From Gordionus sp. m RMFG-2023 (lineage: Eukaryota; Nematomorpha; Gordioida; Chordodea; Parachordodidae): DNA of 64,000 nucleotides. Below are positions 1,515 to 51,563 of this stretch, piece by piece (position 1 is the stretch's first letter; each line of letters opens with the position of its first letter). The stretch covers positions 53,710,569-53,774,568 of the forward strand of contig NC_088776.1 of NCBI RefSeq assembly GCF_954871325.1, written 5' to 3'. The position numbers were made by a program, and so were the translations under genes. Below the pieces are notes generated by a model. That model was given only the letters and a program-made list of their open reading frames with translations. It was not told the origin of the DNA and searched no databases.

Positions 1515-1535
1515 TAATAATAGAACCTGATGCCG
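1515..1535 (+). CDS. Microexon, 21 bp, VIIEPDA
   Basis: The exon follows a T-rich tract ending in AAAG and is followed by the donor GTAAAA. It is 21 bp and in phase 1, reading V-I-I-E-P-D-A once the first codon is completed by the G of the preceding exon. It is separated from the next microexon by an intron of only 53 bp. Size, phase, final G and acidic/hydrophobic/proline content match the microexon family along this strand. This is the leftmost member that I can support; the start codon of the gene probably lies beyond the left edge or in an unrecognised exon. Confidence 0.5.
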
Positions 1536-1588
1536 GTAAAAATATTTTTAATAAAAAAACTAAATAGTTTAATAATTTTTATTAAAAG

Positions 1589-1609
1589 AAATTGAAGAAG
1601 TTGCTCCCG
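1589..1609 (+). CDS. Microexon, 21 bp, EIEEVAP
   Basis: The acceptor is TTATTAAAAG and the donor is GTAAGA. This phase-1, 21-bp exon encodes E-I-E-E-V-A-P, close to VVEEIAP at 4604 and VVEEAAP at 46564. The shared core E-x-x-P and the identical length and phase make it a convincing member of the family. Confidence 0.65.
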
Positions 1610-1712
1610 GTAAGATATAAAAACACATTTCATACTTGTTTTTTAAAATAAATTTAAATAAATTCGACAAAAATATTGATTTTAATATTATGATTATAAA
1701 ATTTATATTAGT

Positions 1713-1955
1713 GGTTGGCTTCTTCGGTCGGTTATAGATTTTAGTCAGCTTAAGTTTTTTGGCGGAGCGGGCTCAAATTTTTTTACCGACAGGTTTTAGT
1801 TTTGAAAATAATTTGCCTAGCCCTGTCTTTAAAATATTTTACAAAAGCAGAGATTTGCGAGGTCCAGCTTACATTTTAGGTTAATATTGTTTTTACCCGA
1901 GCCGGTCAGTTAAAATAACCGACCGGGCTTACTTTTGGAAGAGCCAGACAGGGTT
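1713..1955. mobile_element. GC-rich hAT-like MITE remnant
   Basis: A GC-richer island stands out from the A+T background. Its two ends share inverted motifs (GGTCGGTTAT on the left and ATAACCGACC on the right), and the right side ends in a CAGACAGGGTTTC-like hAT terminus. I see no coding sequence or clean target duplication. Most likely it is a degraded non-autonomous hAT. Confidence 0.45.
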
Positions 1956-2740
1956 TCTCAAAGCTCCAATTTATATTATAAATGTTTCCATTTATTTAAC
2001 AAATTTAAAAAAAATTCCAGTTTCTTTGGAGAATTCTTGCATCCGTAGCAAGTCTAATTATTCATTCATAATTTTTAAGATGACTAGCAACTGCGAGTTG
2101 TGTTCCCGGTCAAGGCGAATGCCATATATTTGTTGTTTAATTTTGAGCTGAGCCCAGATTTTCTTCTGTATTGTAATACAAGTTGTACTAGCATTTTCAT
2201 CTGACACTTCTAATAGTTTTGGTGAATTTGCTCTTATGGCTCTGATATATTTCAATATAATCTCATTATTTCAAAAAAATTTATTAGTATTGATAACTTT
2301 TGTTTTTTTTTACCCTTCAATTCATGGAGCTACTAATTTAATTGGGAAAAATATTTATGTGCAACAACTATTAGGTGAATCAGCTAGGACCAGCCTAGCA
2401 CTGATAGTAATATGAATAAATTTTACCAATATTGAGAGGGAGTGGGATATAATACAAGATAACTTGATATTGTAGGATGGGAGGGGACAGTTTTGAAAAA
2501 TTTAGTGGGTAATATCAAAGTTTTCATAATTATTGTATTACAAATATTTTTATGAATATAATTTTTACCCAATATAGATGTAAATTTATATATGATTTTA
2601 TAAAAGTAGCATGGCCAGCCTTAGCCTGTTTTATATAGGGGGGTACCATGACGCAAAATTATCATTTAAATTGAACAGGTGTAAAAAACTCTTTGGGATC
2701 ATTTATTTTTACTCACAATTTTGTCTTCTTATAATTTTAG

Positions 2741-2761
2741 GAATTGAAGTTCAAACCATAG
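2741..2761 (+). CDS. Microexon, 21 bp, GIEVQTI
   Basis: This exon has the best polypyrimidine tract in the cluster (TTGTCTTCTTATAATTTTAG) and a GTGTCT donor. It is 21 bp, phase 1, and ends in G, encoding G-I-E-V-Q-T-I. The peptide is less like the consensus, because its Glu is one position early and it has no Pro, but length, phase and borders all agree. Confidence 0.5.
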   Translation, partial: ELKFKP

Positions 2762-3135
2762 GTGTCTTAAACCATAAGAATGAATAGGAATGTTAGATGG
2801 CTATATTTATTGGTTATTAGGCTTCTCTCTCATGTCGGTGTTGGTAGAAAGGGATCTGAACAAAACAATCTGAGCATATTCTCAAACAAGGAGTATGTTT
2901 TGTTTTCTGTTAAATAGGCGGGAATAAATTATTTTGAAATACTTTACAATAAAAACAATGTTGAATTTGAAGCATGTAAATTTACCAACAATATTAGCAG
3001 AAATAGAAGCTAGTTGGTTTAAAAAATGTTAACAACAACTAGTAATGAAAGAAAGATGGAAAGATAGATAAAAAAAGGAATAGAAAAAAGTTTAAAAATT
3101 TCTGTAAATTAAATAATTTATATATTTGTTTTAAG

Positions 3136-3156
3136 TGTTAGCAGAAATTCTTCCAG
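3136..3156 (+). CDS. Microexon, 21 bp, VLAEILP
   Basis: It is flanked by a TTTTAAG acceptor and a GTAAGAAT donor. The exon encodes V-L-A-E-I-L-P in phase 1. It fits the family consensus V-x-x-E-[IV]-x-P with conserved Val, Glu and Pro positions. Confidence 0.65.
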
Positions 3157-4603
3157 GTAAGAATATTTATATTTGTAAATTTCATCATAAGTAATAAATA
3201 TTTAAGACAAATAAAAGAAAAAAAGTTTCCTATAATAGAAATAAGAAAAATAAAGGAAATAAAAGATATGAAAAAGAAGATGAACATAATAAATAAAAAC
3301 AAAGAAATAATAAATAAACGAAAGAAAGAAATAAAAAAGGCAGAATAAATATATATAATATTAAACAATGATGAAATTCCTTTTCAGAATTAGTTATTTA
3401 TTTTTTTTGTTAGTATTGTTTTATATTCAATATTACGCAAAAATACTTATTCATAATTTCATATGAATCTCATAAGATTTTCCATCCTAAGTTTATCTCT
3501 TTTTTTAATTATTGATGTTGATTAAATTAGTATATAGAGATAAGTTATAAAAGAACATTTACAAATAGTTTCATAAGTTATATATTAGTATTAATTTTTT
3601 CTATATATTTACGATGTTCATAAAGGCAAGCCTAGATTTGATATAAGTCAAGACAATTTTCTTTTTCAGTCATATTAGGAGAGTGAATGACAACTTTTAT
3701 TACACCATAAGATAAGGATTTGATGCATTTTATGCACTCACCTAATCAATCATTGCCCCTAACTAACAAGAAAGATTCCAGTTATAATGCATTAGAAAAA
3801 AGATGCCATTTTTCTTTTAAAAACTCTTTTATTCTCTATTATATAATATTATATCTGATTAGTAACTATTGGTTCTAGCTTTATTTTTCCTTGTTCACTT
3901 TCAATTTTTTGGGCTAATAACCAATATATATTTACAAGTGCCTCATTTCCAATGATGTAATAGACCAGCCATGGAAATTTTCTAAAGAATTTTTTCTTCA
4001 AGTATATTATTTATTAAGTATACTAGAGTTTAGAGCAAATTTATTTTCATTAATTTAATTAAATACTCGTCCTTTCACATTATAAAGAAGTGTAGATAAA
4101 TTTATATTATTTTAAAATAATTTCTAATTTTTTTGGGGGGTTAGATGATGATTGTTCAAGATTAGTTTAAGAATAATTGGCAAAAGTAAGTTAAAAATAT
4201 AAACGTTTCTCAACTCAGGGTTTTAAATTATATAAAGTACATTGTATTTTCTTTAGCAAAGTTCACTTTTTTATAATAAGCATACTAGAATATATCTTAG
4301 AATTTTTAGAATACCTAATCTACCATATATATTTAGAAATATTTGTTGTAAACATCGAGCCATTCTACAATATTTCTCTTAAAATGATTTAGATGTTCGT
4401 AATAAGAATAACTATATTTAGTAGATATATATTCATCAAATGTTTGAATACATTTCTAGCAAAAACTTACTTTTCAAATTTAAAATGACATACAGAGTCT
4501 TCAAAAATTATCATTATAAGCAACATTTTAGTCAGTGGAAATTAGAATGAAATTTATGCAAGATTAAATAACTTTATAATTTATACAAGTTTTTATTAAT
4601 AAG

Positions 4604-4624
4604 TGGTAGAAGAAATTGCTCCAG
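4604..4624 (+). CDS. Microexon, 21 bp, VVEEIAP
   Basis: This is the archetype of the family: a 21-bp phase-1 exon between an AAG acceptor and a GTAAGAAT donor, encoding V-V-E-E-I-A-P. The last base is G and the first two are TG, so exons of this type join as G|TG and restore a Val codon in any order. The product would be a tandem heptapeptide repeat. Function is unknown; by composition a flexible, acidic, Val/Pro-rich segment is likely. Confidence 0.7.
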
Positions 4625-5802
4625 GTAAGAATATGTTTGATAAAAAAATAATATTTTAATTATGATAGATAAAATTATTTAAGACAAAAATCATGAACGC
4701 AGGCTCAATTTACAAACTGTGCTTTATAAAAAATTTTTAGAATTTGCATCATTATTAATAGAAAAATCTAAAGAGAAATATAATTCTGATATTTAGCTAA
4801 TGATATAGGGTTATCGGGATAGGATATAGGAAGTGATTTAGACGTTATAATTATGTAAATTTTATATCAATCCTGCCCTATGCCTCATTTTAAAATAAAG
4901 GAGTGAAATTTTAACATGAACTCTTATAAATTATTAGTTAACTAAATTCCAAATGAGTTAAGCCGAGCTGGCTCGCAGATCACTAACAATACTAGTAAGA
5001 CATGTATTAACAATGATCTTTAAAATTCAACGAAGATAATTACATTATCACTATGTAAAATTTATTAGAATTTTTGTATGCTAGGGATAATATTAAAATT
5101 TATCTCGACAAACATGTGCACTCAAAATTCATAAATAATGGCCGCTGCAACAAAAGGTTTATTGTATCGAGAATTTAATTGCAAAAAAATATTTTTAATT
5201 ATATCATTTTGTCATTGCTACAAGGACCTAGCAACAAAGCTTTTCAATTTACTATGCTTAATTAGGATTACGTGTAAAGCTTTAAAATTTTATTTGATTT
5301 AAAATTTTTTTACAAATTAAGATTTCGTAAAATAATATTAAATTCTTTTTGCAATATTATTTTAACTTAAAGAATTAAAATAGTTATTTAAAAATATATG
5401 TAATTATTAATCTACTAATAATAAAACACGATTTTTTGAGATTACTACAAAATATTTACGTGGTCGCTGAAAATTTCTTGGCGTCCCCTTCTTAGGGTAT
5501 CCTCCTTTTAATTTTTCTTTAATATTTTTTAATAAACATTTTTTATATATAAAATTTTATACATTTTTTAAATATTTTATCGATTACTACTATTTTTTGG
5601 TTATATTGTTTTTAAAAAGATATATTTATAGACTTATATTTGTAAAATTACGGAATTATTGAATAATTTTGGAGTAATTAATAATTATTATTGAATAATT
5701 TTCATTAGTAATAAATTTCTTTTTTAAGACCATTTAAAAATTTAAAAATTAATAAGAATGAATATAAGTAAAATTAATTCATTAATCTTTTTTAATAACA
5801 AG

Positions 5803-5823
5803 TGATAGGTGAAGTAGTTCCAG
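5803..5823 (+). CDS. Microexon in tandem array, unit 1, VIGEVVP
   Basis: This is the first of four near-identical microexons in a tandem array. It has an AACAAG acceptor and a GTAAGAAT donor, is 21 bp and phase 1, and encodes V-I-G-E-V-V-P. The surrounding intron is duplicated with the exon, so the copies arose by whole-unit duplication. Confidence 0.7.
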
Positions 5824-6385
5824 GTAAGAATATTAATTATAAAAACATAAATAAATTAAATCTTAATAAAAATATGTATCATAAATTTATGAGTACTATC
5901 AAAACTACTAAAAAAAATTAAGATTAATATAGTTAAAGAAAATAGCCAGCAAAAATATATAAAAATGATTGTTTGTCTTTGTATGAATGCCACCAATAAT
6001 AATAAAAATTATGAAATATGACAAATTTTTGTGTAGTTAAATATTATAAATTTTTTACAAAAGTTGACATATTTACGTCCTCCTTTTCATTTTTCTTTAA
6101 TATTTTTTTTAATAAACCTTTTTATATATATAAAATTTTATACCGTTTTTAAATATTTTATCGATTACTACTATTTTTTGGTTATATTGTTTTTAGAAAG
6201 ATATATTTATAGAGTTATATTTGTAAAATTACGAAATTATTGAATAATTTTGGAGTAATTAATAATTATTATTGAATATTTTTCATTAGTTATAAATTTC
6301 CTTTTTAAATGACCATTTAAAAATTTAAAAATTAATAAGAATGAATATAAGTAAAATTAATTCATTAATCTTTTTTAATAACAAG

Positions 6386-6406
6386 TGATAGGTGAAGTAG
6401 TTCCAG
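6386..6406 (+). CDS. Microexon in tandem array, unit 2, VIGEVVP
   Basis: It is identical in sequence to the unit 1 exon, 583 bp downstream, with the same acceptor and donor context. Its identity together with near-identical introns points to a recent duplication. Confidence 0.7.
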
Positions 6407-6967
6407 GTAAGAATATTAATTATAAAAACATAAATAAATTAAATCTTAATAAAAATATGTATCATAAATTTATGAGTACTATCAAAACTACTAAAAAAAA
6501 TTAAGATTAATATAGTTAAAGAAAATAGCCAGCAAAAATATATAAAAATGATTGTTTGTCTTTGTATGAATGCCACCAATAATAATAAAAATTATGAAAT
6601 ATGACAAATTTTTGTGTAGTTAAATATTATAAATTTTTTACAAAAGTTGACATATTTACGTCCTCCTTTTCATTTTTCTTTAATATTTTTTTTAATAAAC
6701 CTTTTTATATATATAAAATTTTATACCGTTTTTAAATATTTTATCGATTACTACTATTTTTTGGTTATATTGTTTTTAGAAAGATATATTTATAGAGTTA
6801 TATTTGTAAAATTACGAAATTATTGAATAATTTTGGAGTAATTAATAATTATTATTGAATATTTTTCATTAGTTATAAATTTCCTTTTTAAATGACCATT
6901 TAAAAATTTAAAAATTAATAAGAATGAATATAAGTAAAATTAATTCATTAATCTTTTTAATAACAAG

Positions 6968-6988
6968 TGATAGGAGAAGTAGTTCCAG
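6968..6988 (+). CDS. Microexon in tandem array, unit 3, VIGEVVP
   Basis: It lies 582 bp after unit 2. It differs from units 1 and 2 by one silent base (GGA for GGT), keeps both splice borders, and encodes V-I-G-E-V-V-P. The silent change with an intact protein is compatible with constraint, but is a single observation. Confidence 0.7.
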
Positions 6989-7500
6989 GTAAGAATATTA
7001 ATTATAAAAATATAAATAAATTAAATCTTAATAAAAATATGTATCATAAATTTATGAGTACTATCAAAACTACTAAAAAAAATTAAGATTAATATAGTTA
7101 AAAAAAATAGCCAGCAAAAGATTGTTTGTCTTTTGTATGAATGCGACCAATATTAATTAAAATTGTGAAATAAGACAAATTTTTGTGTAGTTAAATATTA
7201 TAAATATTTTACAAATGTAGACATATTTATGTCCTCCTTTTCATTTTTCTTTAATATTTTTTTTAAATATTTTATCGATTACTACTATTTTTTGGTTATA
7301 TTGTTTTTAGAAATATATATTTATAGACTTATATTTGTAAAATTACGAAATTATTGAATAATTTTGGAGTAATTAATAATTATTATTGAATATTTTTCAT
7401 TAGTTATAAATTTCCTTTTTAAATGACCATTTAAAAATTTAAAAATTAATAAGAATGAATATCAAGTAAAATTAATTTATTAATCTTTTTTAATAACAAG

Positions 7501-7521
7501 TGATAGGAGAAGTAGTTCCAG
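7501..7521 (+). CDS. Microexon in tandem array, unit 4, VIGEVVP
   Basis: It lies 533 bp after unit 3 and has the same exon sequence as unit 3, an AACAAG acceptor and a GTAAGAAT donor. The flanking intron is shorter than in other units because part of the T-rich segment upstream of the exon is missing. Confidence 0.7.
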
Positions 7522-8339
7522 GTAAGAATATTAATCATAAAAACATAAACAAATTAAATCTTAATAAAAATATGCATCATAAATTTATGAGTACTATCAA
7601 AACTACTAAAAAAAATTAAGATTAATATAGTTAAAAAAAGTATCCAGCAAAAATATATAAAAATGATTGTTTGTCTTTTGTATGAATGCGACCAACAAAT
7701 TTTTGTGTAGTTAAATATTATAAATTTTTTACAAAAGTTGACATATTTACGACAAATTTCAATAAATAAATCTGAGATTAATTTTGTGAAAGATTCATAA
7801 ACCAAATTTTTTTTAGAGAAGTCATAATATTTAGAATTTAATTTCCAATCTCATCTTACTAAATATTCAGCTGTTAAATGAAACCCTTTAAACGTGAATT
7901 TATAATTATGGGGAACTAATATTTAATTTGAAAATATATTAAAATCAATAATACTAAGAGGAAAAAATTTCTTAGTTAATTGACTAAAATTAGCGTTTCT
8001 GTTTTATACCTGAGCATTTATTAGTTTTATGGACAATTCAGTTTGTATATTAGTGTTAAAAAAAAATTCTTAGTTTTAAATGTTTTCTGAGCATTTTACT
8101 AAGCGTTAAAAAATATCATTTTCCTGAACATTTAAATTGGAGCCAAAAATATTTTGAATAGAAGTAATTAGATAATTAAATTTCTTCTACCAAAGGCCTG
8201 GCCCATAATCAGGTCTGCATATCCTAAAGGGCAAATATTATTTCTTACATATCTGAATGGTTTAGGTATAAACTAGTATTTATCTTTACAAAATCTGGGC
8301 GAAGAAACCGTATTATTTAATAATTGATTATATTACATT

Positions 8340-9340
8340 CAGCTCCTCCATCTTGAGTTTAAGTTATAAAACATTTTAAATATTCCTGACCCCTCACCCT
8401 ACCCTTACCCCCCCCCCCCACCCACGATCTTAACCAACCGACTTTTAATGATGATTGATTCATATTGTAGTCAAATAATATATAAATAATCTTTTATTTT
8501 ATACCCATATGAAATAAAAGATATGCACCCATCTCCCCTATTACATTTCTCTATATCAAGTTGCTTCATATCAGTCAAAAGATATTTCAATTAGTATTTA
8601 TTTGATAGAATAACTCCTGCCCAATCCCCTCCATCTCAATACATGTTCTTTAAGAGAGAAAGCTTGACTTTAATTAGAGAGATCTTTATATTAGCTATCG
8701 ATTGATTAATTATAAAGTATATTACTTTCATGAGGTCAATAAAATAAACTCTTAAAATATGTTAATAAAAATAATAAATTTCTTAAATAAAAAAACCTGA
8801 TTCAAGTATCAATTTGAACCATTTGTATTTATATTGTTTTTTCCTTTTTTAAACATATTCTTAATTTTTTTTTCTATATATTTTTTTAGAGTATTTGACC
8901 GAATTTGACCAGGTCAAATATCCTCCGGTCAATTGACCGACTTGCCAACCCTGCCCCTAAAAAATTAAACACGCCAAAATTATAGCCGGGTTCGCATTCC
9001 TGGACCTGCTGAATAAAATGATGATCAACATTGTATTTAAAGCATATTTTAATTATCTTTTATTTCATACCCATATCAAATTATATTATAACCCCACCCT
9101 CCCCTTGATCAAGTTAATACTTCATATCGGTATGGATATTTCAATTAATATTTATTTGATAGTATGCCTCCCCCTTCCAAGCTATGATTTGTCTTTTAAG
9201 AAAGAAAGGTTGACCTTTATTTGGAATGATTTTTTGATTATCTATTTATTGATTATTTATATAGGAAATTACAAAAAAATTTAACTCATAAAATATTTAA
9301 ATTTAAAAAAATGAATGAATGATAAATAAATCTCTTAAAT
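8340..9340 (+). repeat. Diverged dispersed repeat, two copies
   Basis: Two diverged direct copies, about 8480-8810 and 9050-9360, share blocks such as ATACCCATAT, TTTCAATTA, ATTTATTTGATAG and CTTAAATAAAAAACCTGA in the same order. A poly-C run at 8410-8420 and hAT-terminus-like GC islands near 8200 and 8890-8995 interrupt the region. I see no gene here. Confidence 0.45.
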
Positions 9341-9545
9341 AAAAAACCTGAATAAAGTATCCATTAAAAACTCAAGAGGAACGCCTATAGTTTTGATTTC
9401 ATTTAAAAATATTACATATATATATAATAAAAAATAATAAAAATAATAGAAGGAAAAAAAAAGAAATTTATTTTTATATTATTTATGATTTTTATAAAAT
9501 AATGAATTTTTAGAAAATTTTTATATCTAAAATCTTCTTATTAAG

Positions 9546-9560
9546 CCGGAGTAGTTCAAA
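9546..9560 (+). CDS. Possible 15-bp microexon, AGVVQ
   Basis: The exon follows the acceptor CTTCTTATTAAG and precedes GTAATA. It is 15 bp, phase 1, and reads A-G-V-V-Q. The peptide looks like a shortened relative of VIGEVVP with the Glu lost and Pro to Gln. It could be a functional short exon or a decaying copy. Confidence 0.35.
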
Positions 9561-10194
9561 GTAATAAATATTGTTTTACATATTATATTAATATTAAAAT
9601 AAAAATTTGTGTAAAAAAAAAATAAAAAAAATAAATAAATAAAATAAATTTCAAAAGCATTTAAAAATTAAAATAACAATTTTAATTAAAATGGTTTAAT
9701 GTGTGAAAATGTCAAATGAAAAGCATCTTCAGAATTTCAATCTGTACTCAATGAAGTGATAAATCCCATGAGATTTCCTGTAAAGGGCTTAATCTATAAG
9801 CCTCTTGTACGAAAAAGAGCCAGAGTCCTCCAGTGAAGCTAAAGAAGCTGCCTATAAACCCATATTAAAGATTATATGAGATAGGTCGCAATATTTATTT
9901 GCTGAACATTGTTACAAAGTCGGTATTAATTTTTGGTGTAATGTTTACTAATGAATAAATAAGTTGTAATTTTATTATAGCATTGGCCTACCATCGCCGA
10001 GAGAAAGGTTAGGTATTATACAGGCGAATCAGATACACTGAGTTGATGGATTTGTAAGAATGATCATAGCTGAGGTGTGAAGGCGACTTTTAAGAAATTT
10101 ATGATTAAGCCTTAAATATTATTTCAACTTATTTTATTTCAGATTTTTAAAATAGTTTTATAGAACTTTATAATTTTATAATATTATATTGCAG

Positions 10195-10209
10195 TGGAAA
10201 TTGCTATAG
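10195..10209 (+). CDS. Possible 15-bp microexon, VEIAI
   Basis: It lies between a TATTGCAG acceptor and a GTAAATG donor; 15 bp, phase 1, V-E-I-A-I. It resembles VVEEIAP shortened by two codons. Both splice sites are good. Confidence 0.5.
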   Translation, partial: WKLL

Positions 10210-13200: not shown

Positions 13201-14090
13201 TTTTAACTATAAATTATATTTCTAGTTGAAGAGGGTAATAAAATTTATATTTTATGATATTCAACTAAATGGAAATTATCACTTCCTTATTAACATGGAA
13301 ATTATCACTTCTTTATTAACATGATTATTACGATGATGATTTAGATACAATTAAAACCCGAATTTAATTAAAAGATTCATATTCTTATTATATACTGTCT
13401 TTATTATATTTGATATCAATAGAGCAGCCTGTATTGATTAAAAATGTATCTTTTTTCCTTCTTTATTACTTCTAGCGCTAACTTTTTAGTATTCAAAATA
13501 TATCGAATGAATATTCAATTTATTTTTCACATTTAGTTGTCGAATGTAAGTTATTTGATTAGACAATTATGGAAGATATTAAAAATATACTTTCATATAA
13601 AATCATATATTTTTAAAAAAATATTTGCTTATATTCATGTAAAGATTTTACCCGTAAGCATAAATAGAGCGTGCTATATTTTTTTAAAATGATATTTTAA
13701 AATAATTATATTATATAAAAGTTTAAACTTTCTTTTTTTAGTATTCGTATGTAAGGAAATTTAACTAAAATCCATCTGTTAACTATTTCTTTTAGTCATT
13801 ATGATACTATTATTTAATTTGAAAAATAACAAATATTAATTTTTTAACTTCGTTTGTAATATGTTTAACAATTTAAAATATAATTTTTTTTATTTATTTT
13901 GTGATTCATTAATACACTTGTTAAATGCTTTAAATTATTTTATAATTATATAGTATAATGAAGGTGAATTCCTATATTTTTTTAATATAACATTAAATGT
14001 TAATATTTTTTTGAAAATTTTGGTAATTATTAGTTTCTAACTTTAAACAAAAATATTATAAATTTTATATTAAATATCTTTTTTGTCTAT
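10210..14090. other. A+T-rich stretch without a recognised gene
   Basis: Apart from the weak 10608 candidate, no exon with both splice borders and family resemblance was found. Two 9-bp intervals (13536-13550 and about 13741-13750 areas) have acceptor and GTAAG-type donor sequences but nothing else to support them. A GC patch at 9740-10090, just upstream, looks like decayed coding DNA of unknown origin. Confidence 0.4.
10608..10625 (+). CDS. Weak candidate last exon
   Basis: A strong acceptor (TTTTCTTTCACAG) is followed in phase 1 by G-S-N-L-L-F and a stop. It would terminate a transcript spliced from the preceding microexons. The open stretch is too short to be convincing on its own. Confidence 0.15.
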
Positions 14091-14091: not shown

Positions 14092-14386
14092 CCATTCCTT
14101 CCTTCCTTCCTTCTTTCCTTCCTTCCTTCCTTCCTTTCTTCCTTCCTTCCTTCCTTCCTTCCTTCCTTCCTTCCTTCCTTCCTTCCTACCTTCCTTCCTT
14201 CCTTCCTTCCTTCCTTCCTTCCTTCCTTCCTTCCTTCCTTCCTTCCTTCCTTCCTTCCTTCCTTCCTTCCTTCCTTCCTTCCTTCCTTCCTTCCTTCCTT
14301 CCTTCCTTCCTTCCTTCCTTCCTTCCTTCCTTCCTTCCTTCCTTCCTTCCTTCCTTCCTTCCTTCCTTCCTTCCTTCCTTCCTCTC
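14092..14386 (+). repeat. (TTCC)n microsatellite
   Basis: A nearly pure TTCC tetranucleotide run of about 290 bp has a few interruptions at its 5' end and decays into CTCC at the 3' end. It abuts the left target duplication of the hAT element at 14445. The long open frame across it (Pro-Phe-Leu-Ser) is an artefact of the repeat. Confidence 0.97.
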
Positions 14387-14444
14387 TCCTCCTTCCTCCC
14401 TTTCTCCCCTCCCTCCCTACCTTCTTTCTTCCTTTCCTACTGCT

Positions 14445-17978: not shown

Positions 17979-18451
17979 CTACTGCTATTAAAAGGGTTAA
18001 ACACTTGGAGTTTTTATTGAAAGATAGAACTATTTTTATGTTTATACTTGTTTATTTTTATTGAGTTAAGTTTTTTAAGAGTGGGAAGATTTTCGAAAAA
18101 GCGTGAAAATACGTTTCTTTCAATAAATGATAATGTGTTAATCAGATGAATCCATTTTTATTAAATGAAACCAATTAAAGAGTTTTACATACTTTTCCTT
18201 GGTTTATTTATTCTAAAATTATTGTATATTTATGTTCAAAATTACATAGTTCTAACATTAGATAATATCATATAAAAACAATTTTTTAAGTGCTAGTTTA
18301 ATTTTAATTAAGACTTACAAATTTCAATATTTTTATTGAATTTAAGCTTGAGTATACTTCCATATAAGGGTTGTTAAAATTTACTCTAATGGTACTTGGT
18401 TGTTTCTTCCATTTTAGAAATTCTTCAGAAAAAAAAGATATATATTTTGTT

Positions 18452-22560: not shown

Positions 22561-25350
22561 TGCATATCCATACATGGGTCATTAAACCCCGCCCACCATA
22601 CCTATTTTTTTTAATACCCCTTCTTTTAATTATATATTTTTATATTGATTATAGATATAGTTGTTAATATGAAATTATTATATTTTCAATGTATTAGAGT
22701 TTATTAAAATATGTTTTTTTAATGAGTGTGATAATTTCTTTTAAAAAATTAATAAAGGACTTGATAAAAAAAATAAAAAAAAATAATAATAACTACTCCT
22801 ATTTATAAATTTAATAAGAAAATTTATTATCTAATATTTTAATATATAATATTATAAGGTTTGAATTCATTTTATATTTTTAAAAGATTTTATTTAAAAA
22901 TAATTTATTTTTTAAAGATTCTATTTAAAAATAATCTTTTATAAAATTATTTACAATTAAAAAATTTTTTTTATGATGAATATTATATTTGTTCTTGATT
23001 ACGCGAGAATATATATAACAACGATAAGTCTCTATTTGATTTTAAGGACATCCCATGGAGATCTAAAGGCGATGACTAACACTGCAGGACCTAATGGTAT
23101 ATAAATTATAAACACATTTTAATAATATTTACACTTTTACAAAACTTCATATGATTAGAGCAACAGATTTAATAATTTTTTCTTTATAAAAAACTTTCTC
23201 GTTTATGAGCCTTATCTCATTTTTTAAGATAATAAAGCTATTTCTTCGAATTACAAACATCCTTATCAATCCCAGAAATTTTTATCATGCAGTGAAAGGA
23301 ATATGATGAAGTGGTGCTTATTAGGGCTAAATGAGCTTGAAATAAAAACCACTATTTAAATTAATATAAATATTTATTTGTATTTTAATTAATAATTATT
23401 TCTAATAAAATTTTTTACTCTACCTCATTTCACTATTTATTTTCATAAAAGGTTCAATTGGTAATTAAAAATATTTTATATTAGAGATAACCGACTAACC
23501 CCCACTATGTAAATATATTTTAAAAAGTTTTTTCAGTCTAGCCGTTATGTTTTAACCCACTTTGAAAATATATTTTACACAAATAGCCTGTACTAGGGTC
23601 AACATGACCTTTTGGAGAGGGGTAAGAACAGTTTACTTCTATATTTTTGAAGGGGGTAAGTATCTAAGGGTTAAGGGATATGGGTATAAGCATCTAAGTG
23701 AGATAAGGGTTGGCATCTAAGGGGGTATATATCTTAGGTTGGAGGTAGGAGGCAGGCATCTAATGGGGGTTAAAATTTTTGGTGTTATCAATTACATTTT
23801 TAGAAAATATAGGGCAAAATATATCCCTGTAAGAAATTTTTAATAAATTAATTATATATCTATTCTATATATATAATTATTTTATATGTCAAATATTTTA
23901 TTTAAAAAAACGATTGTAATTTAAAAATAAGAATAAAATACAATGTCTGTATTGAAATAATATATATTTAAAAATAATAAAATTATATTAAAATAAAGAA
24001 AAATATATAGAATTTCATGTAAAATTTTAAAAAATGAACATGTTACACTAAAGAAGAATGAATGCGAAACTAAATCGGCAAATCTGATAAAAAGGTAGAA
24101 TCTTGGGATTAACTGTAATAAGTCTCTTATTTTTCCAATGACTTTGCAAAATTTGTGAGCCTCCCTTCCCACCAATAAATTTTCAGTTATGCAGACGAGG
24201 GTCCGGCCCAATTTACTAAGACAGGCCTGGCCCTTTATAATTTTTTTATGAAGGAAAATTCTTCAAAGTAAATTAAAGGTTAAAATAATTTATTTTACTA
24301 AAATACATGTGACACAAAACCTATAAAAAAAATAGAGAAATAATATTTCTATAATCAATATATTCATTATTTTACAATATCAAAAAATATTGAATAAATA
24401 GGAAGGGATAATAAAAACGAGTGTCTAGATAAGTGACTTGAGAAGTAGACTGTCGTTAAAGTGAATGTAGCAAACTTTCCTGAAAGCTATGGCGAGTCCC
24501 TGTCATAGAATAAAACCTCTGAATGTGGGGAAAAGTTATCAAGAAGTAAAGTTGATGTCAATGGCATGTTTAAACTCATTGAAGTTGTAGCTAATAATTA
24601 TAGATGTCTTCTAAAATGACCAGATCCTTTGAAGTAATTTGATTACAAGCTAGATAAGAGAGATTAAACTACAAGTTTCACTTAGGTTTGTTATTTCCTT
24701 CTTATAAATGCTAAGAAGGATAGAAAAATTTAAAACAATTGTTGAGTACAAAATATAAAGGATGCAGGTTTTTGAGAAGAAATGTTTTCTGCAATGATAA
24801 AATGTCATATCCAAGCTTAAGGAAAGTTGTGTTCACTACTTTTTTGACTTTAAATTATGGGCAACTTATGTTATCATTATTAGAATACCATATATAAAGT
24901 CTATGAGAAATGGTGTCATAGAGAAATTTGGTAGGATCACATTAAGGTCGAACGGAGGAAAAGAGTATATATGTTCAGAGGCTCTGCAAATGAATTATAA
25001 TTGGAAACTAATTTGAAATAGCTTTTAAAATAGAGGTAGTTGATTTTCTTTAAAGTTTTTATTTTTAAAATGAAAAAACTTTTTATTATATAATATAAAA
25101 GGTGTAACTAAAATATAGGAAATTTAAGTTATTCCTCCTTACTATTAATATTTACCTGCATAAAGAATGCTGATATTATATAATATGTTAGGCATTTAGT
25201 TTGATTTGATATTTCTCAATACTTAAAGATTCTATCATATACAATATCACATTATTTGATTTTCCTAAAGGCAACTTTATATCAACTTATTTGAAATTTT
25301 ACACTGAACTATATCGTTAAATTTCATATTTGTTGTCATTATTAACGGGA
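22561..25350. other. A+T-rich stretch; G-rich short repeats; no recognised gene
   Basis: At about 23610-23770 a GGGGGTAAG/GCATCTAAGGGG motif recurs imperfectly four or five times. Around 24190-24235 two hAT-terminus-like motifs (GGGTCCGGCCC and CAGGCCTGGCCC) occur close together. The block 24420-25020 is less A+T-rich and could be decayed coding DNA, but I recognise no protein in it. Confidence 0.4.
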
Positions 25351-31500: not shown

Positions 31501-32290
31501 TTAGATATAATTTCTCTTATTCTTTTGATAAGATTTCAACAAAATTTACTATAACTATATTATGTAAACTGTCGCAGTTGTTCAAATTTACAATTAAATG
31601 CTGCAAATATTAATTTTTTTAAGGAACATAAATCAATATATATTTGTTTTGAGTCTTTATTTTTTTATGAAAATGATAATTATAAAAATCTTGGATTTAA
31701 AATGGAAAATAAAAATTGATATTATCTAGAAATAAGATTTTGTGATTAAAAAGTTACTGTTTTTTTTGGGTGAAAAAATAAACCACCAATCATAAATTAA
31801 CTATATTCAATATATTTTGATAAAAAAAATATAATTTACAAATAAAATTATAAAAGTCAAGAAATAAAAATAGTCACTCAAGGGCATTTGTTAAAATTTT
31901 TACCTAATATATATTGAAATAAATAATAAATTATTTAAGAAAATTTGTAATAGAAAATTAGATTTTTTTAAACCAATATTCAATGTTAATTAATTTATAT
32001 GAAAATATATACATTATTTTAATTTTTAATATCATAGAGAAAATTAAATTTTTCAAACGTAGAAAATGTAAAGGTAGAAGGTAGCGGCTTTAAAAAAACA
32101 TTCAAAATAAACAACTTATTGATCAAAAGACTTACCGGAAAACAAAACTACACACTTATGATGATAGCAACGCCTATAATTGGAAATTTAGAATTATATA
32201 AAACAGTGAAATTTTATAAAATTATTTTTTTATTATAATTTACTTTAGAAAATAAGAAAAAAGAAAGAAAGTATGAATAAATGAAAGAGA
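28600..32290. other. A+T-rich stretch with one decayed microexon-like site
   Basis: At 29737-29756 a good acceptor (GGATTTATAG) precedes codons reading D-I-E-E-V-L in phase 1, very like the family heptad, but there is no GT donor. It is probably a dead microexon copy. The rest shows no gene. Confidence 0.35.
30975..31075 (+). other. Degraded tRNA-like segment
   Basis: CCCAGCGGTAGAGAAAGC resembles a tRNA D-arm/A box, and GTAGGAGTTTGATCCTA about 75 bp later resembles a T-arm/B box with a short stem. The spacing is too long for a normal tRNA and no acceptor stem pairs. It is possibly an old tRNA-derived SINE. Confidence 0.3.
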
Positions 32291-32298: not shown

Positions 32299-32602
<304 letters not shown>

Positions 32603-33734
32603 TAAGTAAACAAAAAATTTTTTGATTGAATATTTATTAAGGTCAATAATACGAATATAATTGAATTCATATTTCCACGCGATCTCAAATCTTACAATCT
32701 TACCTTCTATTTGACATGCCCAAACATAATCAATATGCAAATAATAGCATTCAACTATCTGAAATTCGGTATATTTAGAATAAAAATTTTGAAAAAATAT
32801 TTATAAATTTAATTTGTAAGCTCCTGTCTCCTCTTCTTTGGATTTCATTAATATTTTGAAAATACTCTATTTATATTGCTCCAATATTAGCTTGAGCTTT
32901 CTCTATATTTTTTTATTATATTTATGATATTTTGAAAAATGTAGTTTCCAAAGATTAATTCTTCAGTAATCTTAAAAATGCAAATATTCTGAGATCTGAC
33001 AACCATTTAATTTTTATGCTTCGATAAAAAAATTATTTAAGATAAATATAACATTTGCCAAATAATTTCTTAAAAAAGGGTAAATTTATTTTAATTCTAG
33101 ATATAGAGAAAATAAATATTGATTTAAAATATAAATATTTCAAAAATAGTGAATATAATTTTTCTCCTATATTAACTAAGGTTAAAGAGAAATTATGTAA
33201 GAACCCAAGTTGGCTTTGACAAACTCAAGTCTGCCAACAGTTTATATTTGTAATGAATAAGAATATTTAAATTTAGAATATACATTTTAAAATAAATTAA
33301 ATGAAGCTACTGAAGATTTGAGATCATAGTTATAAATAACAGCCAAAAGATCCTCAAAAGAGTTTAGAATAAATAGGATAATAAAAATTTCCAATTTTTG
33401 TAACAAAACTCCTGACATTTAACTGATATACTTTAATTTTCCTGATACTTTGATATTTCATTCAATATCTTACTAAATTATAATTTTTGGAATTATAATT
33501 TTTATTAAATTATATAATCATTTATATATAAATTAAATTTTATAGCAAAGATAATTTATTTTGTCTAAATATTATTTCAATAATCAATTTAGTGCTAGCG
33601 GGGCTTGCTAAACGATATACATCTTTATGACAGTTAATATTAAAGAAAATATTTTAAAATGTTGGAAAGAAAATATCATGGCTGTTTATAATTATTATTT
33701 AGGATCTATGCTAAGAAATTGTAATCTCTACAGT

Positions 33735-34889: not shown

Positions 34890-37310
34890 ATTATTCTTTA
34901 TAATATTCAAAAAACACAGGTAGTGCTATAGCCAATTTTGCAAAAATTGGTTCGACTAGCCCCAGTCACTCTTACCTCTATTCCCTCATCCCTTTCAATC
35001 CATTATTTTATAAATATAAATACATCATATCTAGCCAACTATTTCTTTAAAAGAGGTCTAATTTTGAAATATAAAAATATATGAAATTTATCATGGAGCC
35101 ATTTGAACATCTAAAATTTTAAAATGTGTAAAAAAACTGTTCTAGATTAAACCGACCTATGTTTTATACTATGATCTGGTTTAAATGAGGAATTTCGGCT
35201 AAACTCGGAAATCTGTTTTGAAGTAGGAATTCTTTTAATAATTGATATATTTATCAATTGGTTTCTCTAATTCTATATCTGCGACTGCAATATATTTACA
35301 TTTTTAATTCGTATCTTGATTGAAAGTGTGTTGACTGTTAGTTTATACATCGTTGGAGGGGGGGGGATTTAAATAATTTCTTGGAACGGAATTTTTTCAT
35401 TTGAGTGGTGGCCTGATTTAACCTAAAATTCATAATTCACTCTTCCTTTGCATACAACTATTACTTTGCATGATTTTTTTTAAGAATAACGCAACAAAAT
35501 ATATTATTTTAAACAGGTTCTGACTCCATAATATTCGCTAATTTATCGTATTACAAAACTAAACGGAGCCTGTTCATAATGGTTTTTCCAAAAAGTTTTA
35601 AGGGTATGATCTAAATTAAATTTGTTTTTTTAAAATGAATAAACTATTGATACCCAATAAAAATATTTTTTATATTAATGCTCATATTTATTAAATTTTT
35701 TATAATAATATTAAAAACACTTTAATATTAAAACACTATATATCTTAAACTTAATTTCTCATAATAGGCAATTCTTGTGTTTATGGAAAAATTAAGCAAT
35801 TATAAAAGTTTTAATAATTTTATTTATTAGAAGATATCAAAAATGGAAAAATTCCGAATCATAATTGCAGCTTAATTTTAGTTATGATAGCTAATCATCA
35901 AAAATTCCAAATAACTGAAGGTTAGATCATACATTTTACCAAAAATTAGTAATTTCTAAAGATTAATGTTTAATTCTAATCATCATTAAAATGAAATATT
36001 TTTAATAAATAAGAAATTTTATAATTAGTTAAGGATGCTGATAAGTTATTAATTAAGATGGATATAAAAGTTAAAATAATATAATTATACTTTAATTACA
36101 CATGAATTCCATAAAAAAAATTTTTCTAAATGTTTGAATATTTTTAAAATAGCAAGAAAAAATATAACCTATATAATTGTCTACAAAACGCCCCAAATGA
36201 AAAAACCGGAAGTTAAATATGTAATCAACCAGGAAAACATAAGGAAAAGTATATATTTAATAAAATCTTTTACAAAATAAAATTATATTTCACAAATAAT
36301 GATTTTCTTTTATCAATAAAGTACAACCCCCTACAGATTTTCAGTTATGTAATCCCAGACGCTTTAATCGATATTATTATTAGCTGTTGCCTTTTTTTCA
36401 ATCTCTATTGATTTTTTTCGAAAGTGAATTCAAATGTTTAATTATCAAAAAATTTTTTTATTTTTTAAAGGTATTTTTTGAATAGTCGAATTCATTCAAG
36501 TTATCTCAGAGTCTTCTACAGTTTCTTTACTATTATTTTAACTAGAGTCCTATCTTATTTCGATTTTCTCAATTTTATTTGTAAATCTGCTATAATCATG
36601 ATTAATGTCTGTATAAATTTATGACCTTAAGTGAATACATCAATAGCTGATTATTCGTTTTCTAACCCAACACATTACACAAGTCATTAGATACCAGAAG
36701 CATTAAAAATTATAAAAATAAAAAGTTTTTTTTATTATTTAAATAATATTGTAATGGAAAATATTTTTTAACACCATTATCCAATTGATTCAATGGTTTT
36801 TTTTATTCAATCCTACCCAAGTTTGCCTTAATTGAGAACTGGCTAAAAGAGAGAAAATATTTTAAAGTTTTTATATATGTAAAAGCTTTTATTAACATGA
36901 AAGTCCCAAAAAAATATAGATAATCGTTTTTTTATATTGAAACAAAGTAGAAGATTTTATGATTCGAATACTTTTATACTTTCTTCATATATAATAATAT
37001 ATAATTTAGAATCAAGAAATGTACCTAGACTGTATTTGGGTAGGTTTCACTCTTTTATTTCAATTTATATTAATTTTTTACTTGTATCCTAAATAAAATA
37101 TAGAAGATATAGATTCATTTTTGGTAGGATTAGGTATAATTATAGAAACCATTCTCTTTTATTATTAAATTTTAGCTTTGATAATTTATACACACACGAG
37201 TAACTTTTACAAATAAAATAAGAATTAAAATAAAAATGCAGTGTAGCTCAATATATATTTTTGACAATCAATTAATTGTATAAAAGAAATTATAAATTAT
37301 CGTTTTTTAT
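34890..37310. other. A+T-rich stretch without a recognised gene
   Basis: No exon, RNA gene or element boundary could be supported here. A poly-G run occurs at 35357-35366. Confidence 0.35.
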
Positions 37311-37312: not shown

Positions 37313-37342
37313 AAACAGAGGATAATCCTGCTCTCATGGAAG
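37313..37342 (+). CDS. Microexon, 30 bp, ETEDNPALME
   Basis: The acceptor is CGTTTTTTATAG and the donor is GTTTAT. It is 30 bp, phase 1 and ends in G, encoding E-T-E-D-N-P-A-L-M-E. It is less A+T-rich than its flanks. The next microexon follows after an 86-bp intron. Its N-terminal E-T recurs in the exon at 44294. Confidence 0.5.
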
Positions 37343-42263: not shown

Positions 42264-42281
42264 TTCATCAACTACCCCCAA
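42264..42281 (+). CDS. Possible 18-bp microexon, VHQLPP
   Basis: The interval lies between an ATTAAAAG acceptor and a GTAAAT donor; 18 bp, phase 1, V-H-Q-L-P-P, ending in A like the exon at 43734. Its C-rich composition contrasts with the flanks. Confidence 0.3.
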
Positions 42282-43733: not shown

Positions 43734-43751
43734 TGCCAGAAGTTGCTCTAA
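43734..43751 (+). CDS. Microexon, 18 bp, VPEVAL
   Basis: It lies between an AAAAAG acceptor and a GTAAAT donor; 18 bp, phase 1, V-P-E-V-A-L. It aligns with the family as V-x-E-[VI]-A-P with one codon missing and Pro to Leu. The last base is A instead of the usual G. Confidence 0.45.
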   Translation, partial: CQKLL

Positions 43752-46563: not shown

Positions 46564-46584
46564 TGGTAGAAGAAGCTGCACCAG
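46564..46584 (+). CDS. Microexon, 21 bp, VVEEAAP
   Basis: The acceptor is TAACAAG and the donor is GTAAGG. Phase 1, V-V-E-E-A-A-P, differing from the 4604 exon by Ile to Ala. A very good family member, lying 42 kb from its closest relative. Confidence 0.7.
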
Positions 46585-47672: not shown

Positions 47673-47688
47673 GTTGTACTATAAGATA

Positions 47689-47887: not shown

Positions 47888-47891
47888 TAAG

Positions 47892-48915: not shown

Positions 48916-49427
48916 GTAATCGTGACAAGCAGTCAACATTCCTGTGTTTATGGGTGTTTTTAAAGATTACGGAATATTTAAATTTATTTAGGAATAATGC
49001 CCACTATCAGTATCGGTGATAACAGAGCTATTTTTACGTTTTAATAACTACCAAGGTGAGGTAATATTAAACCTATTATGGTAGAAATTTATTGATGATT
49101 AGATGATTTATAGTATATTTTTATATTCATTCTTATAAGTTACGGAAGGTGTCAGGAAAAATTCTTTATTAGTGCTCTCAATTGTAGATGAGCCTTTAAG
49201 TTATTCAATATTTACTTTTTGATCCAAAAACGCTCATCTATTTTATTGTTCTTGTCAAATATTATATTAGTGGTTCAAGGTTTAGTACTATAATAGTCCT
49301 AATTTTTACCGGCTCGTGATATAAGGAAAAAGAAAAATATTATTTTTTTAGATTTCATATATCATTTAATCAATAATTTTGGTAGAAGATGTAATTTATT
49401 AATTTTATATATCTGCTTATTAAACAG

Positions 49428-49448
49428 TGGCGGGAGAAATGGCTCCAG
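49428..49448 (+). CDS. Microexon, 21 bp, VAGEMAP (left copy)
   Basis: The acceptor is TTATTAAACAG and the donor is GTAGGAA. Phase 1, V-A-G-E-M-A-P. The paralogous exon at 51362 differs at two bases (GCG/GCA and GCT/GCC), both silent, while the flanking introns have changed much more. This is the best evidence in the window that the microexons are translated. Confidence 0.8.
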
Positions 49449-49591
49449 GTAGGAATGCTTATAAAATAAATTTTATTTACTTTACCTATAAAATACATTT
49501 TTATAAAAAAAAAATGATTATTATAATATATAAATTTATAAAAAGAACGAATTTTCAATAGAATTAGATAAGTGTTTCTTTTTTTAACAAG

Positions 49592-49615
49592 TGGTGGCTG
49601 AAGGAACAGTTGCAG
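49592..49615 (+). CDS. Microexon, 24 bp, VVAEGTVA (left copy)
   Basis: It follows VAGEMAP after a 143-bp intron. The acceptor is TTTTTTTAACAAG and the donor is GTATAT. It is 24 bp, phase 1, V-V-A-E-G-T-V-A. The paralogue at 51540 keeps length and phase but has several amino-acid changes (VAAEGIGA). Confidence 0.75.
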
Positions 49616-50354
49616 GTATATAATATATTTTATAAAAAATAGTCTCATAAAAAAATACCAGCTATTTTTTATCATGATATTCATTACTAAGGAAAAAATT
49701 ACAATTAATCTAAATAAAATAGTTGCATTCCAATTTAAATATATTGAATAGAGATACCTAATTCTAATTTTAATATTTCAGATTAAGGTTTTTTATAATA
49801 TATATATATCCAATATTGTTTCTTTCAATTTTTTATTATTCATAAATTATTGATATAAATATATGACTATCATTTGGGAATAGCTAATTAAAAAAAAAAT
49901 TTAAGATAAACGCATCTTGAGAGTTTTCTATTCATATAACTGATATCCCAAGACAAAGGGAACATAACGCGCTCTAATGCAATACTTTTTTTAATCAATA
50001 ATAAATTAATGTAGTTTTTGGTAGCATACTATTTTTTTTAACTAAAACATTTTATATCTATCTTATTTAATATTTTAATAACTACTGAAGAGATGGCTTG
50101 GTGAATAAATTTAGCAAATATCTTACTCTAATTGTTTTTGTTTCTAGTCAGTCTATTTCAAACCCACATTCATTTCCCATAACTCAAAAAATGACTTTCC
50201 TTTGATTATGCTATCTTGTTATGGAAGTCGATGCCTCATAGCTTGAAATCAATAGACAGAAGTATTTTGATAAGCAGCTGTAGCTCGCGGTTTTGAATAT
50301 CTATTATCTAGCAAACTAATAATCGTTCTCTCTTCACTTGCTCTCTGGTTTCAG

Positions 50355-50440
50355 AACTTCTATCGACAACAACGGAAAGCACAATTTACACTGTAGATCA
50401 TGTAAAGGCTAAACTAAATCCTCAAGCAAAACCAATGTAA
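50355..50440 (+). CDS. Terminal exon, 86 bp, ELLSTTTES...QAKPM-stop
   Basis: A strong acceptor (CTCTCTGGTTTCAG) opens a phase-1 exon reading ELLSTTTESTIYTVDHV and then KAKLNPQAKPM before TAA. It is clearly less A+T-rich than its flanks. Ser/Thr-rich then basic, it has no membrane segment, so this product would be soluble or secreted, unlike the product ending at 47953. It sits just past the end of the duplicated segment, so the right-hand copy has lost or replaced it. Confidence 0.6.
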
Positions 50441-50546
50441 TTTTCTTATCCTACGAATTTTAAAATCATCCGAATACCTGCAATACTTGAACCACTATAA
50501 CTTTTAAATCAAATGGAAAGAGAGTTTATGAAATCACTCTGATCCT

Positions 50547-50815
50547 ATGGAAAAACCAATTTTTTGTTTGGAAATATTCTGGTATAAATTTATTAGCTCC
50601 ATCCAACTAAACTTCAAACATTCCAGAGCAAAAAGAAAGTCTGAAATTTCAGAAGATCATATCTTTAATACAATAATAGCTACATCCCTATCTTCCTTTA
50701 TTGAGACTGCATTATCTTTCTCCAAAGATTTAAGATCTTACTTCTGCGAGCTTACTGGCGATCTTCAAGAAGGTCTTCCTAAGACAGGAACTGGTCATAG
50801 CGATCCTTGAAGCAC
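50547..50815 (+). other. Less A+T-rich ORF-bearing segment, possible LINE relic or 3' UTR
   Basis: An open frame contains text such as FSKDLRSYFCELTGDLQEG. The phrase ELTGD is loosely like the GQRLRLSTGDP segment near the end of the LINE at 22480, and the block has LINE-like base composition. It begins about 100 bp after a terminal exon stop, so a 3' untranslated region is the alternative. I cannot decide. Confidence 0.25.
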
Positions 50816-51361
50816 ATTATATAAACTTCAAGGGCAGTCTTCCCTCCAAAGTTCTCAGCTAGACTAGTCTTCCATAGGTTTTACTTCTCTATTTTTTAAT
50901 TATTTTTTTTATAATAAAATATTTATTTTTTTGATATAAATATTGTATATTCTAAATATTTATTAACAAATGAGCTTTGAAGTTTTATAGGGTAACAAGC
51001 GTATTCCCAAATAATTTTGAAAACTCTTTAATTCAATTAGGCTCACCTATTTCATGGTTCTTGTCAATATACATTGTATTAGTAGTTCTGGATTTTGTAC
51101 TATAATTTTTAACTGCTGGAAAAGGAAAAATATATTTTTTAATTTCATATAACATTTTATCAATAATATTGGCAGAAGTTGTTATATCTAGGAAATAAGA
51201 TATTTTACTATAACTTATTAATACATTTTCTTAAAAATATAGAAGAATGATATAAATAGAAGAAATAAACATAGAATAAATAGATTTTTATTAGGAGTTA
51301 GATATCGTTAATTTAGAGAAGATCTATTTTTTTTAATTTTATATATCTTTTTACTAAACAG

Positions 51362-51382
51362 TGGCAGGAGAAATGGCCCCAG
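51362..51382 (+). CDS. Microexon, 21 bp, VAGEMAP (right copy)
   Basis: The acceptor is TTTACTAAACAG and the donor is GTAGGAA; phase 1. It encodes the same heptapeptide as the exon at 49428 with only silent differences. The start of this paralogous gene was not found. Confidence 0.8.
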
Positions 51383-51539
51383 GTAGGAATACTTATAAAA
51401 TAAATTTTACTTACATTATTGATAAAATTTTTATAAAAAGTTGATGATTATAATTTCAAAATTTTACAAAAAGAACTAATTCAATAGAACTAGATAATTG
51501 TTTTATTTTACATTATGCACATATATTTTTGTTAACAAG

Positions 51540-51563
51540 TAGCGGCTGAAGGAATTGGTGCAG
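51540..51563 (+). CDS. Microexon, 24 bp, VAAEGIGA (right copy)
   Basis: The acceptor is TTGTTAACAAG and the donor is GTATAT; 24 bp, phase 1. V-A-A-E-G-I-G-A, paralogous to the exon at 49592. Length, phase, Glu and Gly are conserved; the other positions vary. Confidence 0.75.

Follow-up and report, generated by a model that had tools for sequence, protein, structure and literature searches.

Microexons in the window

The DNA analysed here is a 64,000-nt stretch (the window) of the hairworm Gordionus sp. m RMFG-2023 (assembly GCF_954871325.1, contig NC_088776.1, positions 53,710,569 to 53,774,568 of the forward strand; the contig is called chromosome C2 below). It holds parts of two tandem genes, designated A and E, whose downstream portions (tails) are built of microexons that encode the heptapeptide Val-x-x-Glu-x-x-Pro (VxxExxP) and its relatives. 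A plain scan of the window detected 11 AG/GT-bounded 21-mers on the plus strand (at 1515, 1589, 3136, 4604, 5803, 6386, 6968, 7501, 46564, 49428 and 51362), nine of which carry the strict motif. Together with the exons of 9, 15, 18, 24 and 30 bp, the borders of which were placed in this analysis (the initial annotation gave lengths but not every site), the window contains 19 microexons of 9–30 bp. All 19 are phase 1, have a length divisible by three and are bounded by AG and GT; the final base is G in 17/19, and 12/19 begin with TG. These counts bear out what had been proposed from the letters alone, a phase-1, frame-neutral microexon family with V/E/P heptads, most members ending in G and starting with TG. 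One claimed exon (51543-51563) is indeed a microexon, but the better reading of its borders is 51540-51563 (24 bp, VAAEGIGA), since the duplicate copy at 49592-49615 has the same length. A search of the window against Rfam at gathering scores gave no match.

Heptad microexons are more frequent than chance would produce. In an untrained strand control that took every AG-21-GT interval in the window, VxxExxP was read in phase 1 in 9/108 intervals on the plus strand and 0/93 on the minus strand, and the same control over the 264 kb that hold genes A and E and two further family members, B and F, gave 14/392 versus 0/401. Across the genome searched (287.06 Mb; chromosome C2, 64,442,710 bases), a degenerate pattern of exon plus splice sites, with up to three mismatches, matched at 102 sites (81 forward and 21 reverse), while the same pattern read backwards matched at none on either strand (0 + 0); a looser pattern gave 147 matches (98 + 49) against 12 (7 + 5) for the control. 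A splice-and-codon score, for which 23 different exons from these 264 kb served as the training set (one of them counted twice), reached 20 bits or more at 36 plus-strand and two minus-strand sites in that region. Of the 36, 22 are exons from the training set and 14 are not; among the latter are the exon at 43734 and the greater part of the gene F tail. One of the two minus-strand sites is also among the degenerate-pattern matches listed.

Gene architecture and protein features

When the 264 kb were compared at the protein level, four units (A, B, E and F) proved to have ordinary exons ahead of their microexons, all in one order and on one strand. The layout is e1, which carries the start codon and a hydrophobic leader, followed by e2 to e7b, e8 (30–33 bp), e9 (24 bp; in A, B and E) and the microexon tail. 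In the models, only the introns between e2 and e3 and between e4 and e5 are phase 0, all others being phase 1. This divides exons e2 to e7b into three modules bounded by phase 1 on both sides: D1 (e2+e3), D2 (e4+e5) and D3 (e6+e7+e7b). In the gene models of A, B and E all tail exons begin and end in phase 1, and the joined coding sequences (1204 bp in 22 exons, 1174 bp in 20 and 850 bp in 14, respectively) contain no stop codons. The ordinary exons encode about 270 residues of a family without known match. Exons of 36 bp or less make up 0.24 (A), 0.22 (B) and 0.22 (E) of the coding sequence found, the 3' ends being open, and the view in the initial annotation of a protein made almost entirely of microexons must be given up, as they amount to only about a quarter of it.

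The ordinary exons were located by protein-level homology with B, E and F. Exon finding by the ratio of nonsynonymous to synonymous substitution rates (dN/dS) on short open stretches had been dropped as noisy, with 38 plus-strand and 42 minus-strand segments passing. A stretch of B that resembles a start exon was rejected as such and read as the 33-bp internal exon e8, because A has no in-frame ATG there.

Gene A starts 47.8 kb before the window, so that no more of it is included than the tail, beginning with the second 21-bp exon (1515-13234), and gene E extends from 22973 to at least 51563, the end of the last tail exon found (Table 1). The interval 1515-51563, previously taken as one unit, joins two tandem genes, comprising most of the A tail and nearly all of E. 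Exons e4 and e5 (module D2) were not found in gene E by protein-level homology; the pair is jointly frame-neutral. Gene F (tail at window 117555-142830) has a different type of tail, with mostly 15-bp exons.

By eye, all four genes in the 264 kb have a hydrophobic leader after the e1 start codon. This signal-peptide-like first exon speaks for a probably secreted product, in line with the secreted or membrane-anchored protein of the initial annotation. The N-terminal part carries 11 (A) or 10 (B) N-glycosylation sequons and four cysteines besides one in the leader, the cysteines being at residues 27, 98, 111, 201 and 258 in both A and B. The tails of A, B, E and F, counted without e8 and e9 and with nine of the 11 scanned exons of F, contain 7–17 acidic residues, no basic residues and no cysteine, with a proline on average every ~10 to 13 residues.

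Consistent with the initial annotation, which named no described family with this heptad, neither Pfam (A, B and F) nor NCBIfam gave a match above the curated cut-offs, the best Pfam result having an E value of 0.046 and 13.5 bits against a cut-off of 27. The N-terminal part found nothing credible among PDB sequences (best E value 0.32), and the mutual comparison of modules D1–D3 gave no convincing similarity (best profile probability 3.9%). The joined tail peptides of A and E matched two designed coiled coils in PDB (E values 1.9e-6 and 4.5e-4); since the tail peptide carries prolines, this likeness was set aside as one of composition only.

Table 1. Exons of genes A and E within the window (window positions)
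Feature	Position	Strand	Remarks
Gene A tail microexon VIIEPDA, 21 bp	1515..1535	+	AG/GT and phase 1 kept in aligned paralogues A, B, C, D
Gene A tail microexon EIEEVAP, 21 bp	1589..1609	+	Same peptide in A, B, C, D
Gene A tail microexon VLAEILP, 21 bp	3136..3156	+	Same peptide in A, B, C, D
Gene A tail microexon VVEEIAP, 21 bp	4604..4624	+	Same peptide in A, B, C, D
Gene A tail microexon VIGEVVP, 21 bp, copy 1 of 4	5803..5823	+	From scan; donor lost in B, C, D
Gene A tail microexon VIGEVVP, copy 2	6386..6406	+	Tandem duplication of ~583 bp including intron
Gene A tail microexon VIGEVVP, copy 3	6968..6988	+	Tandem duplication
Gene A tail microexon VIGEVVP, copy 4	7501..7521	+	Tandem duplication
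Gene A tail microexon AGVVQ, 15 bp	9546..9560	+	21 bp in gene B (VAGGVAQ); alignment with two 3-bp gaps and three substitutions
Gene A tail microexon VEIAI, 15 bp	10195..10209	+	VEAAA in B, VEVAA in C
Gene A tail microexon VEE, 9 bp	13226..13234	+	VEE in B
Candidate last exon of gene A, uncertain (VGRFSKKRENTFLSINDNVLIR, stop)	18082..18149	+	Open phase-1 stretch kept in B with a different stop
Gene E e1, start codon and signal-peptide-like stretch, ends in phase 1	22973..23096	+	33–45% identity to first exons of F, B, A
Gene E e2 (module D1, first half), phase 1 to 0	32063..32205	+	Homologues in A, B, F
Gene E e3 (module D1, second half), phase 0 to 1	32642..32768	+	Protein 64% identical to A
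Gene E e6 (module D3), phase 1 to 1	35517..35603	+	Protein 79% identical to A
Gene E e7 (module D3)	35831..35920	+	Homology to A, B, F
Gene E e7b (module D3)	36153..36248	+	Homology to A, B, F
Gene E e8, 30-bp microexon, KDIDSFLVGL with carried base	37104..37133	+	Position of 33-bp KNLEEFLQGIE (A, B) and NNIQKIWQTIE (F)
Gene E e9, 24-bp microexon, EDNPALME	37319..37342	+	Conserved in A and B
Gene E tail microexon VPEVAL, 18 bp	43734..43751	+	28.9 bits in exon scan, outside training set; without paralogue comparison
Gene E tail microexon VVEEAAP, 21 bp	46564..46584	+	Plain scan and exon score
Gene E tail microexon VAGEMAP, 21 bp, copy 1	49428..49448	+	Duplicated including intron, 75% identity
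Gene E tail microexon VVAEGTVA, 24 bp, copy 1	49592..49615	+	Intron-bearing duplication
Gene E tail microexon VAGEMAP, 21 bp, copy 2	51362..51382	+	Intron-bearing duplication
Gene E tail microexon VAAEGIGA, 24 bp, copy 2	51540..51563	+	Intron-bearing duplication

Between the A tail and the start of E lie a long (TTCC)n array (14095-14434) and, in pieces on the minus strand, open frames labelled by eye as a BED zinc-finger/hAT-like transposase (15319-16762). A long (GATA)n array (32300-32602) occupies part of the e2–e3 intron of gene E. Another signal-peptide-like first exon is found 2 kb upstream of e1 of gene A (window -49902, ~C2:53660667); it is 74% identical over 27 residues to e1 of gene E and may be a remnant or an alternative start.

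Tandem array and genome distribution

Self-comparison showed the region to be a tandem duplication of units of about 49–73 kb, with first exons spaced 49–79 kb apart. With protein B as the query, at least 125 exon matches were found in the genome; as 123 of 196 first-look candidates were scored, the family counts are lower bounds. The matches lie at C2:53.17-53.96 Mb (all on the plus strand), at C2:59.96-62.72 Mb (both strands), in one unit on C1 (minus strand, e1 to e7b) and on contig C152. Exon e5 alone occurs at 26 places or more, counted by eye (11 in the 53-Mb array, 13 at C2:59.96-62.72 Mb and one each on C1 and C152), some of which may be broken copies; gene E, without e5, falls outside this count. 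Among the matches listed, ten tail clusters were seen by eye at 53.19-53.76 Mb, one per gene, each after the last N-terminal exon found and before the next e1.

Heptad exons are also present in other settings. Clusters of microexons with the same heptad at C5:7741265-8105833 have no N-terminal match at an E value of 0.01, and represent either a second gene type with the same tail or a strongly diverged N-terminal part. At C2:60988001-60994000 heptad exon units stand in a dense tandem array, a few hundred bases from one to the next. Several of them, by eye, have GTTGGAAT or no standard donor, or carry indels; the array is probably decaying, or uses an unusual donor. The matches listed further include at least 12 near-identical heptad exons within 7 kb at C2:60660130-60667108 (minus strand), with the donor GTTGGAAT in 11 and GTTAGAAT in one. 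A single heptad exon on the opposite strand (VVEEVDS, C2:53779328-53779358, minus) is situated in the array between genes E and F.

There are at least 48 nuclear COX1 matches, one of them 187 kb beyond the window (C2:53961868); a nuclear copy is readable with the invertebrate mitochondrial code 5, in which AGA specifies Ser, and one locus contains perfect inverted repeats of 100, 47 and 38 bp. Long perfect inverted repeats within mitochondrial genes are reported for Nematomorpha (PMC6649704). Telomere-type arrays, among those listed, are almost all TTAGGG. Together these traits give good support to a nematomorph origin of the DNA.

Selection and exon turnover among paralogues

Three further paralogues, C, D and G7, were compared with A and B. 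The 21 ordinary exons fetched from them all have the same length as in B and a GT donor (21/21 in each case), and every internal one has an AG acceptor (19/19). Over the eight ordinary exons e1 to e7b, A and B differ by a dN of 0.068 and a dS of 0.166. Six of the ten pairs among the five genes have 15 or more synonymous changes and give dN/dS values of 0.41, 0.30, 0.51, 0.54, 0.44 and 0.49; lower numbers of synonymous changes (in brackets) underlie the ratios for A/C, 0.49 (7), B/D, 0.40 (7), and C/G7, 0.65 (3). Two of the six, B/G7 and D/G7, were computed on five exons, not eight. Judged by the six ratios with 15 or more synonymous changes, the ordinary exons are under purifying selection.

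The tail comparison used nine exons of A that have an alignment to B and excluded VIGEVVP copies 2 to 4 (6386, 6968 and 7501). Gap columns make up 6/171 in the tail exons, all in one exon and in multiples of three, versus 294/1800 in the flanks. Codon counts on eight exons (the gapped one left out) gave a proportion of synonymous differences (pS) of 0.24 versus 0.09 for nonsynonymous ones (pN; Fisher p 0.02). Nine of the ten B tail exons were compared with other tails: in C, 9/9 keep a length divisible by three, the AG, the GT and an open frame, and in D the same is true of length, splice sites and frame in 6/6 comparable exons, two rows having aligned to other exons and one exon having no D row. 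The exon encoding VIGEVVP behaves differently. It is present in A as four copies, each with its own intron and about 583 bp apart, and in B, C and D its donor has changed from GT to AT, with a stop codon in the D copy and a P-to-L change in the C copy. The conservation of length, phase and splice sites, whose absence in related species the initial annotation had named as a refutation, was checked here on paralogues: it holds for live sites (length shifts are multiples of three), while the donor of one exon has been lost in three paralogues.

Gene C (C1:91503001-91545700) combines two affinities. Its introns near the N-terminal exons have a Jukes-Cantor distance of 0.033 to G7, 0.111 to A and 0.182 to B, whereas its tail DNA is 91–95% identical to B (81–89% just upstream of the tail) and 66–77% to A. 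Since the introns are closest to G7 and A while the tail DNA resembles B, gene C appears to be a recombinant, with N-terminal part and tail of different origin.

Proposed explanation and alternatives

We regard the region as probably (about 0.7) made up of tandemly arrayed paralogues that code for secreted (or cell-surface) glycoproteins, every gene consisting of a leader, N-terminal modules, e8/e9 and a tail of frame-neutral, phase-1 microexons of 9 to 27 bp, the tail serving as a spacer or self-associating segment. The exons, their phases and open frames, their order across paralogues, and their duplication and loss are read directly at the sequence level; from these we infer that the genes are transcribed and spliced at these sites with some exons skipped, that the product is secreted and glycosylated, and what its role is. 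The leader and sequons would point to secretion. The tail is acidic, hydrophobic and proline-containing, with no cysteine and, in the exons counted, no basic residues, and given the acidic composition without basic residues and the recurring prolines it would be expected to be extended and flexible, a spacer broken up by prolines or a segment that associates with itself, and it may carry the N-terminal modules within an extracellular matrix, cuticle or surface coat. Its length and composition could be tuned per gene, and perhaps per transcript. Each symmetric phase-1 exon would act as a cassette: because tail exons begin and end in phase 1, the frame holds when an exon is duplicated with its intron, resized by whole codons, deprived of a splice site or skipped. 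Turnover of cassettes between genes is observed in the genome, and a choice of inclusion within a gene is possible. A structural or adhesive extracellular role is our first choice and a host-facing role the second.

Several points weigh against this explanation. The gene models are predictions from genomic sequence. For the last exon there is an uncertain candidate (18082), for which genes E and F gave no match. Some donors are poor (GTTTTA at e9, GTTAGA at e2 and e7), and gene F has a non-GT sequence after e5 and a non-AG sequence before e7, and may therefore be decaying. One pair, A/G7, has a dN/dS of 2.25, with nine nonsynonymous changes and one synonymous. If the coiled-coil match reflected more than composition, it would favour a helix over a flexible segment. 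In addition, substitutions in the tail exons (22/165, 0.133) are not below those in the aligned near flanks (189/1506, 0.125), so the case for the tail rests on gaps, codon positions and synteny, and the recurrent loss of an exon could mean that the tail is weakly constrained. The last two points would suit the heptad exons being relics, with an expressed N-terminal part and a decaying repeat array that is seldom or never spliced in, as would the array at C2:60.988-60.994 Mb, where several copies (by eye) have indels or no standard donor. We nevertheless regard this as improbable, because gap columns are nearly five times rarer in tail exons than in flanks, the synonymous rate exceeds the nonsynonymous rate, frame and splice sites are intact in the live exons of every comparable B/C and B/D case, and gene F has a separately diverged tail.

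A different function for the same genes would be diversification at the parasite–host interface, in which alternative inclusion of tail exons would present the arthropod host with many protein variants, a role already proposed for the micro-exon genes (MEGs) of schistosomes. Hairworms are parasites of arthropods (PMC10380579), and the signal-peptide-like leader, tandem genes, diversified frame-neutral exons and one recombinant gene (C) would all fit. This remains an unlikely choice, as nine of the ten pairs have a dN/dS under 0.7 in the N-terminal part. A single titin-like gene of about 800 kb might be suspected from the regular spacing and common plus-strand orientation of the N-terminal matches (53.17-53.96 Mb) and of the listed tail matches (53.19-53.76 Mb), but signal-peptide-like first exons recur every 49–79 kb and a solitary unit, running from e1 to e7b and followed by a tail, lies on the minus strand of C1, making such a gene very improbable. 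Scarcely credible is a mobile element or satellite that mimics exons: although units with introns are tandemly duplicated and dense arrays occur elsewhere, the ~49–73 kb unit carries an ordinary protein-coding gene, with the microexons downstream in fixed order.

The array of putative secreted glycoprotein genes may, more tentatively and at somewhat less than even odds, be part of an independently evolved nematomorph micro-exon gene system. This would be a secreted family of at least 26 gene copies with a conserved N-terminal scaffold and frame-neutral cassettes of seven or five residues. Duplication, inactivation and recombination would change the set of cassettes from one paralogue to another, and alternative inclusion would give many tail lengths per gene.

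Comparison with known systems and significance

In schistosome MEGs, about 80% of the coding sequence is reported to lie in symmetric exons of 6–36 bp, and the proteins are secreted or membrane-anchored, with variation by exon choice proposed (PMC5825161). The 19 window microexons (9–30 bp, multiples of three, phase 1 on both sides) resemble them, and the hydrophobic leader seen by eye in A, B, E and F would be a candidate counterpart of the MEG signal peptide. Gordionus differs in phylum, in the share of microexons in the coding sequence found (0.24, 0.22 and 0.22 in A, B and E, with open 3' ends, instead of ~80%) and in the N-terminal part, whose roughly 270 residues are conserved among the paralogues. 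Aphid bicycle and megacycle genes form large, microexon-rich families of putative secreted effectors, in which internal exons are described as almost all phase 2 (PMC9168663). A microexon-rich family with internal exons of one common phase is a shared trait, but the phase is 1 in the tail exons of A, B and E, and bicycle proteins have CYC motifs, whereas the four tails counted have no cysteine and the N-terminal cysteines of A and B lie outside any CYC motif. The titin PEVK region is reported to have its sequence, rich in P, E, V (and K), spread over about 100 short exons, their number varying between mammals, with 113 annotated in human (PMC6469411). In contrast, the tails of A, B, E and F as counted have no basic residues and so no lysine, no Ig or FN3 Pfam match was found in A, B and F, and the genes here form a family, each of them small and probably coding for a secreted product, instead of one giant muscle gene. 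The Gordionus family works partly like MEGs, bicycle genes and PEVK, and fits the full definition of none. No paper on nematomorph microexons was found in the literature searched, a search that subscription papers mostly escaped.

If this explanation is true, the family would be a further independent case of secreted microexon genes in host-dwelling animals, beside flatworm MEGs and hemipteran bicycle genes, and would come from Nematomorpha, a phylum with very little molecular data. Standard gene prediction is expected to miss such exons. In this family a tail assembled from cassettes would be joined to a conserved N-terminal scaffold. Its paralogues record the birth of exons (the four copies in A), their death (the missing donor in B, C and D) and an apparent exchange of tails (gene C), so that the origin and turnover of microexons would become directly testable.

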